NCBI RefSeq assembly: GCF_028882255.1
Contig: NZ_JARBUY010000002.1
Span: forward strand, 632,342 to 696,341
Direction: 5' to 3'
From: Maribacter polysaccharolyticus
GTDB lineage: Bacteria > Bacteroidota > Bacteroidia > Flavobacteriales > Flavobacteriaceae
DNA length: 64,000 nucleotides
Within the stretch, counting starts at the first letter, position 1. Every line of letters starts with the position of its first letter. Positions 49,167 to 54,361 of this stretch are shown one piece after another. A program made the translations under genes and the position numbers. The notes beneath the pieces are model-generated. The model had not been told where the DNA came from and searched no databases. It worked only from the letters and a program-made list of their open reading frames with translations.

Positions 49167-50006
49167 CTAAAACATATTTAATTTAAAATTGACATAGGAC
49201 TTGGCCAATAGTCCCAATTTTTGATAATCGGGCACTCGGATCCTGGCCTTTCGTATCAAGGAGGACGGGGTCTTCTCTAATTTGCCCAATAATCTATTAT
49301 AATATTTATAGGCCGTATATACCCCTAATTTCGCTTCTCTGGGCAACTGCTTGATGCCCGTGTAACTTCGTTGAAAATCGTCCTTTATTTCCTCGATAAT
49401 CCGTTTTTTGGATTCCTCATCCAACTCATTTACATTGGTGTTCGGAAAATAGGAGCGGTGCAATACCTCAAAATCGGCCTTCAGGTCCCTTAAAAAATTA
49501 ACTTTTTGAAAAGCCGATCCCAAAGACATGGCCGAATCTTTCAATTGTTCGTATTTCTCTTTGTCCCCTTTTACGAAAACCATTAAGCACATAAGGCCCA
49601 CCACATCGGCAGAACCGTAAATATATTCCTGGTATTCCTTTTCACTGTAATAGGTGCTCTTGGTTAGGTCCATTCTCATACTCTTCATAAAAGACGCTAC
49701 CAAATGATAGGGAATGTCATATTTGTGAAAGGTATGTTGAAATGAATTCAATATCGGGTTCAAACTGATTTTATCGGCAAGGGCCGCTTCAAGGCTTTTT
49801 TCAAAATCGTCCAAAAGCTGTTCTCTTTGGTAATCATGGAAACTATCCACGATTTCATCCGCAAAACGGACAAAACCATAAATATTATAGATATCGGGGC
49901 GTATCGAAGCCCCCAACATTTTTGTGGCAAGCGCAAATGAAGTGCTGTAGGTCTGTGTGACGATCTTGCTGCAATCATAGGATACCTTATCGAATAGTGC
50001 CTTCAT
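49167..50006 (-). CDS. crtB: Phytoene synthase (CrtB)
   Basis: A 279-aa enzyme that joins two geranylgeranyl diphosphates to phytoene. The two aspartate-rich substrate sites appear as FADEIVDSFHD and as KVNFLRDLKADFEVL, with YSTSFALATK at the front typical of the family. It is 9 nt downstream of crtI and 1 nt upstream of crtZ. This is the first committed step of the pathway encoded by the operon. Confidence 0.95.
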   Translation of the reverse strand: MKALFDKVSYDCSKIVTQTYSTSFALATKMLGASIRPDIYNIYGFVRFADEIVDSFHDYQREQLLDDFEKSLEAALADKISLNPILNSFQHTFHKYDIPYHLVASFMKSMRMDLTKSTYYSEKEYQEYIYGSADVVGLMCLMVFVKGDKEKYEQLKDSAMSLGSAFQKVNFLRDLKADFEVLHRSYFPNTNVNELDEESKKRIIEEIKDDFQRSYTGIKQLPREAKLGVYTAYKYYNRLLGKLEKTPSSLIRKARIRVPDYQKLGLLAKSYVNFKLNMF

Positions 50007-50015
50007 TATCTTACG

Positions 50016-51476
50016 TTATTTTTTATTAGCGATTAATTCAGAAACCAACTTGCCAGATATCAGTGAAGGGGGCACTCCTGGGCCGGGAACGGTCAATTGA
50101 CCTGTAAAATACAAATTTTTTACTTTTTTACTTTTTAATTTAGGCCGTAAGAAAGCGGTTTGGGTTAAAGTATTGGCCATACCATAGGCATTGCCCTTAT
50201 AGGAATTGTACTTGGCCATGAAATCATTGATACAGAACGATTCATGAAACAAGATACTGTCTTTTACTTTTTGGCCCGTCCTGGTTTCCAACCTTTCCAT
50301 GATAAGGTCAAAGTATTGTTTTCTGAGTTCCGGTGTATCTTCCAATCCAGGGGCTATGGGTATTAGGAAAAAACCTGTTTCACAATCTGCCGGCGCCATG
50401 GTCGAATCTGTTATGGAAGGAAAATTCGCATAGAACAAAGGAGCTTTCGGCCAATTGGGTTCATCGTAAATATCGTAGGTATGTTGCTCAAAATCGGTGT
50501 CGAAGAATAGATTGTGGTGCTCTACGTTTGTTAATTTCTTATTGAAACCTACATAGAATAAGAGCGATGAAGGGGCAAATGTGCGTTGATCCCAATATTT
50601 TTCACTGTATTGTCTGTGTTGTTCCTCGAGTAAGGTTTCCGAGTGATGGTAATCGGCTCCACTCAGTACGATATCGGCATGAATGTCATTTCCTTGGACC
50701 GATATACCCAAAGCGTTTCCCTTGTCGTCAACCCGGATGCGTTCCACCGGACTGTTGACATGGAATTTTACACCCAATTCCTTGGCCAAAGAATGCATGG
50801 CTTTTATGATCTCATACATTCCACCTTCTGGATGCCACGTACCCAACCCAAAATCCGCAAAGTTCATAAAACTATAAAACGAAGGTGTATTACTGGGTTT
50901 GGCACCTAGAAAAAGAACGGGGAATTCCAAGGTAGAGATCAGTTTTGGATTTTTGAATTTTTTCCTGACCTCCCCACTTATGGTCTTAAAGAATTGGTCT
51001 ACCTTTAAAATGGTGTCTTTCGTAATTAGTTCAAAAGGTGACAACCCGGGTTTTAAGACTACCTTGTTTATGGCAATATCATAGTTTTCCTGGGCACTTG
51101 ATATGAATTTTCTCAAAGGAATGGAGCTTCCTTTCTCGATCCGTTCAAATTCGGTACAGATTTTTTCCATGGTATCCCCGATGGAAATAGAATCTTGTTC
51201 AAAGAAGATTTTATAGGCCGGGTCCAATTTGTGCAAAGTGTAATAGTCGCGGGTCTTTTTGCCAAAATCCGAAAAGAAATTGTCAAAGATATCGGGCATC
51301 CAATACCAACTTGGTCCGAGGTCAAAAGTAAATCCTTCCTTGATCATTTGACCGGCCCTGCCCCCAATGGAAGCGTTTTTTTCATAAACGGAAACGTCAT
51401 AACCCCCTTTGGCCAGATAGCAAGCAGCTGAAAGTGACGAAAACCCAGAACCGATTATGACAACTTTTTTTCCCAT
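50016..51476 (-). CDS. crtI: Phytoene desaturase (CrtI)
   Basis: A 486-aa FAD-dependent desaturase. The N-terminal dinucleotide-binding fold is VVIIGSGFSSLSAACYLAKG with the second acidic residue in VSVYEKNASIGGRAG. The C-terminal motif NLYFTGQLTVPGPGVPPSLI is the family mark. It converts phytoene to lycopene (or similar) by three to four desaturations. It is 23 nt downstream of the regulator gene, so it lies in the same operon. Confidence 0.95.
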   Translation of the reverse strand: MGKKVVIIGSGFSSLSAACYLAKGGYDVSVYEKNASIGGRAGQMIKEGFTFDLGPSWYWMPDIFDNFFSDFGKKTRDYYTLHKLDPAYKIFFEQDSISIGDTMEKICTEFERIEKGSSIPLRKFISSAQENYDIAINKVVLKPGLSPFELITKDTILKVDQFFKTISGEVRKKFKNPKLISTLEFPVLFLGAKPSNTPSFYSFMNFADFGLGTWHPEGGMYEIIKAMHSLAKELGVKFHVNSPVERIRVDDKGNALGISVQGNDIHADIVLSGADYHHSETLLEEQHRQYSEKYWDQRTFAPSSLLFYVGFNKKLTNVEHHNLFFDTDFEQHTYDIYDEPNWPKAPLFYANFPSITDSTMAPADCETGFFLIPIAPGLEDTPELRKQYFDLIMERLETRTGQKVKDSILFHESFCINDFMAKYNSYKGNAYGMANTLTQTAFLRPKLKSKKVKNLYFTGQLTVPGPGVPPSLISGKLVSELIANKK

Positions 51477-51499
51477 TTTGATTTTTGGTGTAAGGATTA

Positions 51500-52399
51500 T
51501 TAATGTTCGATCTGTTCTATCAACTTTGTAATGGAGCTGAATATCGTTATGTTCGGGGCAAGGTTATCACTAGCTAAATATTGGGTTTGCCTACCTAACA
51601 ACCACACCTCGTTTCCTGAATGCAAGACCTGCGAAAGTTCCTCCATATACTTCTTGATTTTGTCCTTGGCAGGGGCTACCGTAAAGTAAGATATGAAAAT
51701 AATGTTTTCAATGAATCCTGTCAGCTCTTCTAAATTTTCCAACGGAATGGACTGGCCTAGGTAAATTGCTTTGTAACCCTGTAGGGAAACCTCATAATTC
51801 AGGTACAATAAACCTATTTCATGTATCTCATTTTCGGGAAGATATAAAACAAAGGTTTTGTCTTTTTTTGTGGGTTCGTTGAGTTGTAACTTTTCGATAT
51901 TGACCTGGATCTTTTGTTTGATCAACCCCGTTATAAAATGTTCGTGGGCCGGGGTGATGGTGTCGGTTTGCCACAAAAGTCCGAGTTCGTGAAGTAAGGG
52001 AATGAAATAGTTTTTGAAAATTTCCCGGAAGGAGTGTTCGGTCAACAAACCATTGTAGGTATTGGCAAATAGTGTTTGGTCAAAATTGATCATGGCCATC
52101 TTAAAAGCGTTCAGGATATGACTTTGACTATTTTCAACGGCGACTATTTCTTGGACCTTTACGGGGATTTCAGCCTCTTTCAATTTGGCGATCTTCGATA
52201 TCTTAAGCCCATTGTTGTACAATAGGGTGATATTCAAAAGTTTTTGTAAGCTCTGAAGGCTGTATGTTCTAATGTTGGTCGTTGTCCTTTCAGGGGAAAG
52301 TAAATTGTATCTTTTTTCCCAGATGCGTATGGTATGTGCTTTTATACCGGAAAGGTTTTCCAGGTCACGGATACTGAAATTCTTTTTTACATTGTTCAT
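51500..52399 (-). CDS. CarH/LitR-like cobalamin-binding MerR regulator, probable light-sensing repressor
   Basis: A 299-aa protein with a MerR helix-turn-helix (about 1-75, IRDLENLSGIKAHTIRIWEK then RYNLLSPERT) and a C-terminal B12-binding region. The four-helix segment carries the CarH signature W143-x9-Glu153-His154 (LLWQTDTITPAHEHF), in the same spacing as the Trp, Glu and His that hold adenosylcobalamin in CarH. The Rossmann part has ENEIHEIG, an E-x-H-x-x-G form of the cobalamin lower-ligand motif with His193. That supports a B12-based photoreceptor. It is the first gene before crtI-crtB-crtZ, so autoregulation and light control of carotenoids are likely. Direct binding is inferred. Confidence 0.87.
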   Translation of the reverse strand: MNNVKKNFSIRDLENLSGIKAHTIRIWEKRYNLLSPERTTTNIRTYSLQSLQKLLNITLLYNNGLKISKIAKLKEAEIPVKVQEIVAVENSQSHILNAFKMAMINFDQTLFANTYNGLLTEHSFREIFKNYFIPLLHELGLLWQTDTITPAHEHFITGLIKQKIQVNIEKLQLNEPTKKDKTFVLYLPENEIHEIGLLYLNYEVSLQGYKAIYLGQSIPLENLEELTGFIENIIFISYFTVAPAKDKIKKYMEELSQVLHSGNEVWLLGRQTQYLASDNLAPNITIFSSITKLIEQIEH

Positions 52400-52420
52400 C
52401 TTTTACTTAAAAAGTTTAAA

Positions 52421-52428
52421 CAAATATA
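52421..52428 (-). promoter_or_regulatory. -7 promoter box of the MerR-crtIBZ operon
   Basis: TATATTTG on the minus strand, an exact TAnnTTTG match. Transcription would begin about 17 nt before the regulator start at 52399. It lies between the last GIY-YIG unit terminator and the regulator, and is the obvious site for autorepression. Confidence 0.6.
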
Positions 52429-52496
52429 GAATTTATTTTTTACGGTTATATAAAAGGAAAGTTAAAATCGGAAATTGTCCACGGATACGGAGCAAA

Positions 52497-52549
52497 AAAA
52501 AAGCTTCCCTTTTTACGGGGAAGCTTAAGTGCCCACGACTGGAGTCGAA
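52497..52549 (-). repeat. 53-bp direct repeat, copy 1 (terminator plus tRNA-Leu 3' end)
   Basis: Identical to 52861-52913 and 53225-53277. It contains the tRNA-Leu terminator hairpin (stem AAGCTTCCC/GGGAAGCTT) and about the last 20 nt of the tRNA gene. This copy is a remnant after GIY-YIG ORF copy 1 and has no tRNA upstream of it. See the findings for the unit structure. Confidence 0.95.
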
Positions 52550-52595
52550 TGCTGACGCTTTGGTCGGCATTCTGATTTTAGCAAGCTAAACATCA
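52550..52595 (-). repeat. 46-nt double-hairpin insert in a tRNA T-arm remnant (unit 1)
   Basis: Two stem-loops (AATGCCGAC/GTCAGCATT arms with one mismatch, and CTGATGTTTAGC/GCTAAAATCAG) lie between GAA at 52547-52549 and GAACCAGCA at 52596. Removing the insert with one GAA rebuilds the tRNA T-arm sequence. The copy in the second unit (52914-52959) differs only at one base (52566 G versus 52930 A). Confidence 0.7.
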
Positions 52596-52855
52596 GAACC
52601 AGCATCTTCGTTATATTTTATAATGAATTCCTTGGTGCGTTCTTTAGAGAGGTTTTTAAGTTTTCTTTCAAGGGCCATGGCATCGGCCCTACTTTTCTTT
52701 TTGGTGAACCAAACAAGTTTCCATGGTCGATAGCGCGCCGTGGCTTTTTCCTTTCCAGAATTATGGCGGTGGAATCGTTCAAATACATTTTTTGTCTGTC
52801 CTTTATAGAAGGTGTCAAAGGCTTCTGAATATAATATGTAAGTGTAGTATTTCAT
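52586..52855 (-). CDS. GIY-YIG nuclease family protein, copy 1
   Basis: An 89-aa protein with the GIY-YIG fold: MKYYTYILYSEAFDTFYKGQ carries Y-x-Y and Y-K-G in place of G-I-Y and Y-I-G, and is followed by RFHRHNSGK, ARYRPWKLVWF and the helix ALERKLKNLSKERTKEFI. This is the small UvrC-N/Slx1-like form found in many copies in Bacteroidota. The protein is identical to copy 2. The last residues DAGSDV are encoded by a tRNA T-arm remnant. Only 5 nt separate the terminator T-tract of the unit from the ATG, so expression would need read-through from upstream. Confidence 0.9.
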   Translation of the reverse strand: MKYYTYILYSEAFDTFYKGQTKNVFERFHRHNSGKEKATARYRPWKLVWFTKKKSRADAMALERKLKNLSKERTKEFIIKYNEDAGSDV

Positions 52856-52860
52856 AAACG

Positions 52861-52913
52861 AAAAAAGCTTCCCTTTTTACGGGGAAGCTTAAGTGCCCAC
52901 GACTGGAGTCGAA
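52861..52913 (-). repeat. 53-bp direct repeat, copy 2
   Basis: Terminator plus tRNA-Leu 3'-end remnant, exactly as at 52497-52549 and 53225-53277. The repeat period is 364 bp. Confidence 0.95.
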
Positions 52914-52959
52914 TGCTGACGCTTTGGTCAGCATTCTGATTTTAGCAAGCTAAACATCA
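52914..52959 (-). repeat. 46-nt double-hairpin insert in a tRNA T-arm remnant (unit 2)
   Basis: Same as in unit 1. Here the first stem AATGCTGAC/GTCAGCATT is perfect. Confidence 0.7.
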
Positions 52960-53219
52960 GAACCAGCATCTTCGTTATATTTTATAATGAATTCCTTGGT
53001 GCGTTCTTTAGAGAGGTTTTTAAGTTTTCTTTCAAGGGCCATGGCATCGGCCCTACTTTTCTTTTTGGTGAACCAAACAAGTTTCCATGGTCGATAGCGC
53101 GCCGTGGCTTTTTCCTTTCCAGAATTATGGCGGTGGAATCGTTCAAATACATTTTTTGTCTGTCCTTTATAGAAGGTGTCAAAGGCTTCTGAATATAATA
53201 TGTAAGTGTAGTATTTCAT
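52950..53219 (-). CDS. GIY-YIG nuclease family protein, copy 2
   Basis: An 89-aa protein identical to that at 52586-52855, again starting five bases after the terminator T-tract and ending at a T-arm remnant. This copy is the first behind the complete tRNA-Leu gene and so is the one most directly exposed to read-through of the tRNA transcript. The identical protein and almost identical DNA argue for a recent duplication, or for a collapsed or misassembled repeat, since only one base in 364 differs. Confidence 0.9.
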   Translation of the reverse strand: MKYYTYILYSEAFDTFYKGQTKNVFERFHRHNSGKEKATARYRPWKLVWFTKKKSRADAMALERKLKNLSKERTKEFIIKYNEDAGSDV

Positions 53220-53224
53220 AAACG

Positions 53225-53254
53225 AAAAAAGCTTCCCTTTTTACGGGGAAGCTT
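53225..53254 (-). terminator. Terminator of tRNA-Leu
   Basis: Stem AAGCTTCCC/GGGAAGCTT with loop CGTAAAAA and T-tract on the minus strand. It lies 3 nt after the tRNA. Copies without the tRNA follow at 52861-52890 and 52497-52526. Confidence 0.85.
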
Positions 53255-53277
53255 AAGTGCCCACGACTGGAGTCGAA
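53225..53277 (-). repeat. 53-bp direct repeat, copy 3 (at the complete tRNA)
   Basis: The copy that lies in its normal context: it covers the 3' end of the complete tRNA-Leu gene and its terminator. Confidence 0.95.
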
Positions 53278-53341
53278 CCAGCACGTCCTTACGAACACTA
53301 CCCCCTCAAGGTAGCGTGTCTACCAATTCCACCACGTGGGC
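53258..53341 (-). tRNA. tRNA-Leu (anticodon GAG)
   Basis: Read on the minus strand from 53341. The acceptor stem GCCCACG pairs with CGTGGGC. The D-arm contains GAATTGGTAGAC, and the anticodon arm is CTACC, loop TTGAGGG, GGTAG, giving GAG. The long variable arm and T-arm (GCTGG TTCGACT CCAGT) follow. The length of 84 nt without CCA is right for a class II tRNA. The CCA end is not encoded. The 3' end is duplicated twice downstream. Confidence 0.95.
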
Positions 53342-53419
53342 ATGAAATCGGTCTGCAAATATAGGAAGGTGTGATAGAAGATAAAATTTATTGGCATATT
53401 TATTTTACGGTACCCAGCC

Positions 53420-54361
53420 TTACGGATTCCTATGGTATACATCAGGTAAGATGATAATCGAGTCATTTGCCGTGGTTATTTGTAGATCATAACGAATTCG
53501 GAGAGGGGTGCCAATAGGGCACTGGTAATAAATGACCCAGGCATCACTTTCCTTTACCCCGATGCAACCGTTGGAGTATGCTTTTCCCAAGGTCTTGGGA
53601 TTTGTGGTAGGGTGAATTAACTGTCCGTTCATGGCGCCGTTTATTTCCGTTAGTATCCATGGTATTTGGGGCATCAGGGTCAATTGACCATCATCCCTTG
53701 TCGTATAATGGAACGGCTTGCCCGTAACGGGATCATAGAAGTCGGGATCTCTTTGAAAACCTGAGATATGTCCTTCCCCGGTCAAGGTCCTTAAATTGGT
53801 GATACGATCTCCCATTTTCAGATACTTGCTTTTATTTTGGCCTATCCTTATGGGCATGGTGTACAAAGGGATGGAATCTCGATAGATTCTTAGTTTATAT
53901 TCAGGCAGATTAACATCGATATTCGTTTTTGAAAATAAGGTGTTGATGGTTACGGCTTCCAAGGAGTCGGGAATCTTAAGGGTGTTCTTGGGATAAAAAA
54001 CAATCATTTTCCGTTGGTCGAACACAAAGGAGTCCCTTTGGATCATATGATAGTAATCCGTATGGGCCAAGGTATCTATGATCCATGGGTTTGCGTTCAC
54101 CAATAGGTGTTCGGTAAGCCGATAATTTGTTAAAGGGTCATACTGGGAGACCAAAGAGTCGATATAATTAAAATAACCTGCAATATGGATGGTGTCTTCA
54201 ACAATAAGGGGGGCAATGGTTTTTGGGTAGCTTGTGGCTACCTCATCCACGATCTTTTTCTCCGGTATCGGAGCCGAATGGATCTCTAAGAATTTGGCGA
54301 TCGTGATGGTGATCATTAAGAGCAATAGCAACGAGAGGGTATAGGCCAGACTTTTAGACAT
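53420..54361 (-). CDS. L,D-transpeptidase family protein (YkuD domain)
   Basis: A 313-aa protein with an N-terminal signal anchor (about residues 7-25) and a YkuD catalytic domain from about 145. The active-site block reads LIHPTTNPKTLGKAYSNGCI, then GVKESDAW. It has the His and the nucleophile Cys of SNGC, but Gly follows where many enzymes have Arg. The enzyme should crosslink peptidoglycan or attach proteins to it. It lies 20 nt downstream of the small HMA-like gene on the same strand. Confidence 0.9.
   Translation of the reverse strand: MSKSLAYTLSLLLLLMITITIAKFLEIHSAPIPEKKIVDEVATSYPKTIAPLIVEDTIHIAGYFNYIDSLVSQYDPLTNYRLTEHLLVNANPWIIDTLAHTDYYHMIQRDSFVFDQRKMIVFYPKNTLKIPDSLEAVTINTLFSKTNIDVNLPEYKLRIYRDSIPLYTMPIRIGQNKSKYLKMGDRITNLRTLTGEGHISGFQRDPDFYDPVTGKPFHYTTRDDGQLTLMPQIPWILTEINGAMNGQLIHPTTNPKTLGKAYSNGCIGVKESDAWVIYYQCPIGTPLRIRYDLQITTANDSIIILPDVYHRNP

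Follow-up and report, generated by a model that had tools for sequence, protein, structure and literature searches.

Organization of the tRNA-Leu locus

The window, that is, the whole 64,000-nucleotide stretch of the Maribacter polysaccharolyticus genome analyzed here, contains a single tRNA gene, tRNA-Leu(GAG), which lies on the minus strand at positions 53257–53341 according to ARAGORN (53258–53341 according to Rfam) and has no second full match in its own genome. The ARAGORN, ORF, and repeat coordinates confirmed the original prediction that this gene is followed on its strand by two 364-bp units, each composed of an 89-aa GIY-YIG ORF and a copy of the tRNA 3′ end and terminator. The features of the locus are as follows.

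53257–53341, minus strand: intact tRNA-Leu(GAG), the home gene (ARAGORN, Rfam)
53225–53254, minus strand: terminator-like hairpin and T-run 3′ of the intact tRNA
52914–53277, minus strand: unit 1, 364 bp (tRNA 3′ part, terminator, ORF, and hairpin)
52950–53219, minus strand: GIY-YIG ORF of unit 1, 89 aa, protein identical to that of unit 2 (PF01541)
52911–52936, minus strand: junction hairpin closing unit 1, 10-bp perfect stem
52861–52913, minus strand: 53-bp repeat 2, tRNA from T54 to the 3′ end plus terminator
52550–52913, minus strand: unit 2, 364 bp, with a single base change relative to unit 1
52586–52855, minus strand: GIY-YIG ORF of unit 2, 89 aa, protein identical to that of unit 1
52547–52572, minus strand: junction hairpin closing unit 2, one mismatch caused by the single base difference
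52497–52549, minus strand: 53-bp repeat 3, distal tRNA 3′ part plus terminator

The 53-bp direct repeats are exact, start at 52497, 52861, and 53225 with a spacing of 364 bp, and repeat the tRNA end directly at each of the two junctions. The repeated tRNA part opens at T54, where the T-loop begins (TTCGACTCC...), and is immediately preceded by the unit-end hairpin GAATGCTGAC-CAAAGC-GTCAGCATTC, the distal copy of which has one mismatch. In our model, unit 1 includes the tRNA sequence from T54 onward (53277 downward), and repeat 3 would be the original 3′ end of the host gene, displaced by the insertion. As had been noted from the sequence, the units differ at one base only (plus strand, 52566 G versus 52930 A). 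Each unit has 94 bp outside the ORF; the GIY-YIG ORF is the only recognizable family in the 364 bp, and the element has no site-specific recombinase gene. Because only 5 bases separate the T-run from the ATG, the ORF may be expressed by read-through from the tRNA gene.

Chance does not account for a near-perfect 364-bp tandem repeat attached to a tRNA 3′ end. An array arising from an assembly error is also unlikely, because the window copies differ at one base, genome G007 of the same genus has its own pair of units (the same 364-bp period, with ORFs differing at five sites), and arrays of three to five ORFs occur in the single-contig genomes G386, G329, and G228.

Directly beyond the element, the region 49167–52399 includes a gene for a MerR regulator with a B12-binding domain. 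By eye, the two genes beside it look like those for phytoene desaturase and phytoene synthase, and the region is perhaps a light-controlled carotenoid locus.

The encoded GIY-YIG protein

The second ORF in the window matched PF01541 with an E-value of 2e−15, and all 37 members of our protein profile A1 (described below) also matched this family. Residues Y6, Y17, G19, R27, E63, and K67, which we take to be catalytic, are invariant in A2. An AlphaFold2 model of the 89-aa protein had a mean pLDDT of 90.9, and its best PDB matches were UPF0213 proteins (BH0048; 1zg2 and 1ywl), followed by SLX1, whereas the match to the I-TevI catalytic domain was far weaker. The protein thus has its fold and sequence in common with the stand-alone UPF0213 and prokaryotic Slx1-like GIY-YIG proteins (PDB 1zg2, 1ywl, SLX1), but unlike them it is linked to, and specialized for, a target gene. 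No NCBIfam model matched the window protein at E ≤ 1; a group I intron endonuclease model was matched by 23 of the 37 A1 members (E ≤ 0.01), and two PHROG homing-endonuclease families by four and three of them, respectively. A group I intron at the locus was considered and rejected: an Rfam search of positions 51900–53900 at E-values up to 1 returned only the tRNA and a Phe_leader match far below its own threshold. Known homing endonucleases usually carry a DNA-binding part, and the fact that the 89-aa protein is little more than a catalytic domain counts against a homing reading.

The tRNA-Leu site across Maribacter

The tRNA region was searched for in 12 Maribacter genomes, and the loci of 11 were read. 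Two units were present in the window genome (G000) and in G007. A single unit with a decayed distal end was found in G004, one unit plus the beginning of a second at a contig end in G011, and a unit interrupted by a contig end in G005 and G006, while G010 retained a decayed ORF start without a tRNA copy. The site was empty in G009, which has the same downstream MerR gene as the filled genomes, and also in G001, G003, and G008, in which the downstream region is different; G002 gave a match of only 25 bases. A remnant also lies beside the same MerR gene on an uncultured Flavobacteriaceae contig (L053). The comparison of empty and filled tRNA-Leu sites that had been proposed showed that the layout is not always fixed: with the MerR gene downstream, filled (G000, G007, and G004), decayed (G010), and empty (G009) sites coexist, between species rather than within one.

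The genome of the window also has a decayed GIY-YIG ORF located 40 bases after tRNA-Asp(GTC) (L009, 1387–1617). It has an internal stop and a 63-aa open frame (remnant at G000:C15:504522–504638) and is probably the remnant of a second element.

Related loci in other bacteria

More than 100 related copies beside RNA genes were found in several bacterial groups. Relatives of the window protein (E ≤ 0.001) occurred in 60 of 99 related genomes, many of them in tandem, and 70 loci were kept from these 99 genomes after repeats of one place were dropped. At a profile score of at least 82, 32 of 37 loci lay within 450 bases of a tRNA gene and five had no RNA link by ARAGORN, whereas below this score only 1 of 33 was linked; the threshold was chosen after the data had been seen, and the A1 profile was built from 37 RNA-linked members taken partly from the same sample, which makes this split partly circular.

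When A1 was compared with 395 genomes of Bacteroidota, 223 matched at E ≤ 1e−14, a count that includes relatives scoring below the RNA-linked level. About 118 loci were among the matches listed, of which 112 were taken, 109 of them new. The search of other genomes for GIY-YIG ORFs beside tRNA genes, suggested with the original prediction together with a search for 3′ copies, found them widely: 96 of the 109 listed top-scoring loci adjoined a tRNA or tmRNA gene. All 99 locus–RNA pairs in this sample were on the same strand, at a median distance of 50 bases, and 89 were within 150 bases. The other 13 loci comprised three inside RNase P RNA genes (L160, L162, and L230), two with tRNA 3′ copies for which no intact tRNA was called (L161 and L220), six at contig ends (L142, which repeats a tRNA-like 3′ end, L147, L165, L194, L196, and L199), one at an epimerase-like gene (L207), and one within a protein gene (L192). 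Tandem ORFs were seen at 30 of the 109 listed loci, in support of the suggestion that the units amplify by recombination.

Outside the Bacteroidota, a Neomarinimicrobiota genome had seven matches, and the three loci read included the layout at tRNA-Ser and (in tandem) at tRNA-Lys, as well as an ORF 123 bases after a tmRNA gene. In the phylum of a Staskawiczbacteria genome, presumably Patescibacteria, 99 of 192 genomes matched at E ≤ 1e−18. Among 24 new loci from this phylum, 17 were 31–86 bases upstream of a tRNA gene on the same strand and one was 207 bases downstream of a tRNA gene, counts that cover proximity to a tRNA gene. Searches of phages, plasmids, and viral contigs turned up no relative of the window protein, which counts against the homing reading. 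The many matches at contig ends led us to guess at an association with rRNA genes, which we rejected: Rfam searches of 20 loci, in 19 of which ARAGORN had called no tRNA, returned only two tRNAs (L009 and L050).

Layouts, insertion sites, and palindromes

The loci showed two mirror layouts, and a partial copy of the RNA gene was detected in 91 of the 99 pairs at the 109 listed loci, a few of which may be false owing to the likeness of neighboring tRNA genes. In type A (intact RNA, ORF, 3′ fragment), the 3′ copy was detected in 61 of 67 pairs and undetected in six; in type B (5′ fragment, ORF, intact RNA), the 5′ copy was detected in 30 of 32 pairs and undetected in two. The corresponding numbers in the related-genome sample were 17 of 20 for type A and 10 of 14 for type B, with the copy undetected in three and four pairs, respectively. 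Together, the two types point to an insertion at one point in the target, with the displaced part restored by the insert.

These observations bear on one alternative, namely that recombination merely duplicated a tRNA gene in tandem beside an unrelated housekeeping GIY-YIG gene. The 53-bp repeats may suffice for unequal recombination, and tandem copies do occur; however, the family is RNA-linked in three phyla, its lower-scoring GIY-YIG relatives are mostly unlinked (1 of 33 linked), and the partial copy is present in single units too. We consider a plain duplication extremely improbable.

The insertion site was constant for each target: T54 in four tRNA-Leu(GAG) loci, the T-arm in eight tRNA-Asp loci, TTC^GA in several tRNA-Ser loci and one tmRNA locus, and the codons for TGGAGF in four epimerase-like genes. 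In type A, the distal copy often contained a palindrome that was flanked on either side by tRNA sequence and whose position depended on the isotype: the T-arm for Asp, the anticodon arm for Val, Ala, Arg(TCT), Gly, Gln, and Lys, TTC^GA in the T-loop for several Ser genes and tmRNA, and a place beside T54 for the clade of the window. Hairpins at p ≤ 0.05 were found in 65 of 117 junction segments, compared with 6 of 117 segments inside the ORF; some of the 52 junction segments without a hairpin had simply missed the palindrome, and native tRNA arms can themselves score as hairpins. The hairpin at the locus described above recurred in other tRNA-Leu(GAG) members (L014, L015, and L016) and, in altered form, at L131 and at L043, a tRNA-Ser locus of Saprospiraceae whose protein shares 58% identity with the window protein, the highest value among A1 members outside the genus.

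A further candidate, that the elements generate genome-wide REP-like palindromes, was rejected after the pattern TCCCGAN{2,14}TCGGGA was counted in 22 genomes (0–74 matches): the window genome had 10 matches versus 7 for the control, and 43 were counted in G408, a genome without any A1 match at E ≤ 1e−14. This palindrome is dispersed in 43–74 copies per genome in G265, G319, and G408 (control, 0–4), with no clear link to the elements, and is of interest only as a lead. Separately, a tRNA-Arg 5′ fragment forms an 80-bp tandem repeat, with the palindrome and no ORF, at L036 (1–157), upstream of an intact tRNA gene that also has units downstream.

Insertions outside tRNA genes

At L230, L160, and L162, the Rfam match to RNase P RNA starts within the tail of the ORF, and in the L230 alignment several positions in the first RNase P helices are mispaired. 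In all three loci, the sequence 5′ of the ORF pairs with the 3′ end of the RNA over 10 bp (for example, TGGGAAAGCC with GGCTTTCCTG) and an inverted repeat of 19–24 bp flanks the ORF, indicating that the ORF lies inside the RNase P RNA gene. Judging from its position, we take the insertion to be in helix P3.

At L207, L105, L038, and L107, a 5′ gene fragment ends after the codons for TGGAGF, the element has a common start, and a gene with the same TGGAGF motif follows 3′ of the ORF; this layout was seen in all four such loci. The host genes appear to be distinct genes for sugar epimerases or dehydratases. Since the elements have homes in such genes, the target is a DNA sequence and not necessarily a folded RNA. 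At L192 (1231–1504), a GIY-YIG ORF with 13-bp inverted ends splits a small protein gene, presumably for an S23-type four-helix bundle. The layout is therefore not confined to tRNA-Leu or to tRNA 3′ ends, as first described, but extends to the mirror 5′ type, tmRNA, RNase P RNA, and protein genes.

Target specialization and movement

A tree was constructed from 186 proteins over 83 columns, with 136 linked proteins (nine labeled by hand); 82 of its 182 inner branches are open and many forks are weak. The target isotype required 36 changes on the 136 rows, compared with a mean of 98.9 when shuffled. When both were scored on the 131 rows for which host codes were available, the target required 33 changes (95.8 when shuffled) and the host family 53 (81.1 when shuffled), with the protein phylogeny tracking the target more closely than the host. 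The distinction between linked and unlinked rows required 18 changes.

Partial tRNA genes are known to arise from integration, and tRNA genes are common integration sites, as stated in the available text of PMC9897764. A restored tRNA gene with a displaced 3′ fragment is also the layout of tRNA-integrated islands and prophages, in which an intact tRNA gene lies at one end and a tRNA fragment at the other. On this basis, a recombinase acting in trans might integrate a small circle at the tRNA gene, with the GIY-YIG gene as a passenger. However, those islands and prophages have a tyrosine integrase, whereas the window element has one 89-aa ORF and no integrase, and GIY-YIG is the only protein found in the unit. 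Moreover, the phylogeny follows the target RNA, which is not expected of a passenger, and the mirror 5′ layout and the RNase P and epimerase-like sites would each demand further recombinases; unlike tRNA islands, the class shows 5′ restoration in 32 of 99 pairs and has homes in RNase P RNA and protein genes. Integration in trans is accordingly a distinctly improbable account.

Evidence of movement came from genome G061, in which two tRNA-Val(TAC) loci are situated 1.58 Mb apart on one contig (near 0.41 and 1.99 Mb). From within the tRNA gene to near the distal terminator, the two loci are 94–100% alike per 50 columns, whereas the flanks on both sides are 38–62% alike, which is the level of unrelated sequence. 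A similar pair occurs at tRNA-Arg in G095, where the neighboring tRNA-Pro region upstream is alike too. This near-identical element at two tRNA-Val loci, together with the filled, decayed, and empty tRNA-Leu sites, supports the earlier suggestion of a minimal tRNA-associated mobile element.

At fourfold sites, the element in the window differed from that of G007 at 7 of 32 positions, compared with 79 of 141 for the MerR and YkuD genes (p = 7e−4), and from that of G005 at 4 of 31, compared with 50 of 81 for YkuD (p = 2e−6; MerR, 39 of 75, was left out of the test). Against G004, the divergence of the element matched that of its flanks (17 of 24; MerR, 36 of 54; YkuD, 47 of 65). Thus, the element is less diverged than the neighboring genes in two of three species comparisons; the low values could also reflect constraint on synonymous sites. 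The dN/dS between the ORFs of G000, G005, and G007 was 0.14–0.27 (0.20–0.27 for the window ORF versus those of G005 and G007), and the two G007 copies gave 0.40, based on five changes; these values indicate purifying selection on the ORF.

Such selection, the structural relatives UPF0213 and Slx1, and the frequent use of tRNA genes as integration sites (available text of PMC9897764) would also suit a nuclease that serves its host from beside tRNA genes, in repair, tRNA dosage, or defense, for example, by cutting phages or islands that have tRNA attachment sites or by blocking those sites. Nevertheless, the patchy presence in one genus, the decayed remnants, the insertions in RNase P and epimerase-like genes, the recurrence of one element at two loci of a genome, and the target specialization all fit a selfish element better than a host service, which we regard as unlikely.

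Proposed mechanism and comparison with known systems

Anatomy, site specificity, the occurrence of empty and filled alleles, and horizontal spread were all as in homing endonucleases. From the sequence comparisons, we consider it probable that the locus carries a minimal free-standing homing endonuclease element that brings along the half-gene displaced by its insertion. The 89-aa GIY-YIG protein would cleave element-free copies of the tRNA-Leu gene at T54 or close to it, and homologous repair from a filled copy would insert the unit. Because the insert would open with its own tRNA 3′ part and terminator, the tRNA gene would be whole again; the insert would close with the hairpin, perhaps functional, next to the old 3′ end that was displaced. 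Another unit could then enter the restored site, and the 53-bp repeats would permit units to be gained and lost by recombination; a repaired site combined with these repeats would explain the arrays. Elsewhere, related proteins specialized for their targets would act at D-, anticodon-, and T-arm sites of many tRNA genes, with the 3′ or the 5′ part restored, as well as at tmRNA, RNase P RNA, and epimerase-like genes. Tentatively, and with slightly more doubt than belief, we extend this to a large and previously unrecognized class of selfish elements of prokaryotes, namely single-domain GIY-YIG homing endonucleases in tRNA, tmRNA, and RNase P RNA genes and conserved protein motifs, in which the half-gene is restored from either side and the palindrome at the cut site serves as the element's own end or as a mark protecting the displaced copy. 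A literature search found no description of this bacterial class.

The nearest experimental precedent is SegB, a free-standing GIY-YIG homing endonuclease of phages T4 and T6. According to the available text of PMC13096335, its gene lies beside tRNA genes, the T6 enzyme makes breaks within tRNA genes at the motif RAWTSGAAC, and it drives the amplification of tandem tRNA-Tyr and segB units via homologous recombination. On our own reading, the reverse complement of this motif appears to fit the T-loop consensus, and the unit junction at T54 fits a SegB motif in the T-loop. SegB differs in being phage-borne, and half-gene restoration and a junction palindrome are not described in that text; the likeness is one of description. 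The same text states that free-standing GIY-YIG enzymes usually cut their own donor allele poorly, and it counts against homing that the intact tRNA gene of the filled allele still resembles the target.

Half-gene replacement itself has a parallel. Fungal mitochondrial homing-endonuclease insertions of the Allomyces atp6 type supply a substitute 3′ part for the gene that they occupy. As in the elements described here, they are intronless, reside in an essential conserved gene, bring their own replacement part, and leave the old part as a fragment; the difference is that the hosts are organelle protein genes and not tRNA genes. Truncated atp6 and atp9 copies and free-standing homing endonuclease genes are both reported in the available text of PMC4162613, which does not link the two.

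Implications

The finding in the window is real and is part of a much larger class, and the element seems to move between tRNA genes without breaking them. If the proposed reading is true, these elements would be among the smallest mobile elements known, with one ORF and roughly 300–450 bp per unit, and would inhabit genes that cannot be lost by supplying their own replacement part, as a bacterial-chromosome parallel of phage SegB. They would explain the tRNA fragments and multicopy small GIY-YIG genes in many Bacteroidota genomes, and they would be a natural source of compact target-specific nucleases, with protein clades keyed to one tRNA arm. Site finding by a bare GIY-YIG domain, the avoidance of self-cutting, and homing on bacterial chromosomes would become testable. 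Furthermore, such elements would have shaped the neighborhoods of tRNA genes across Bacteroidota, Patescibacteria, and Neomarinimicrobiota.
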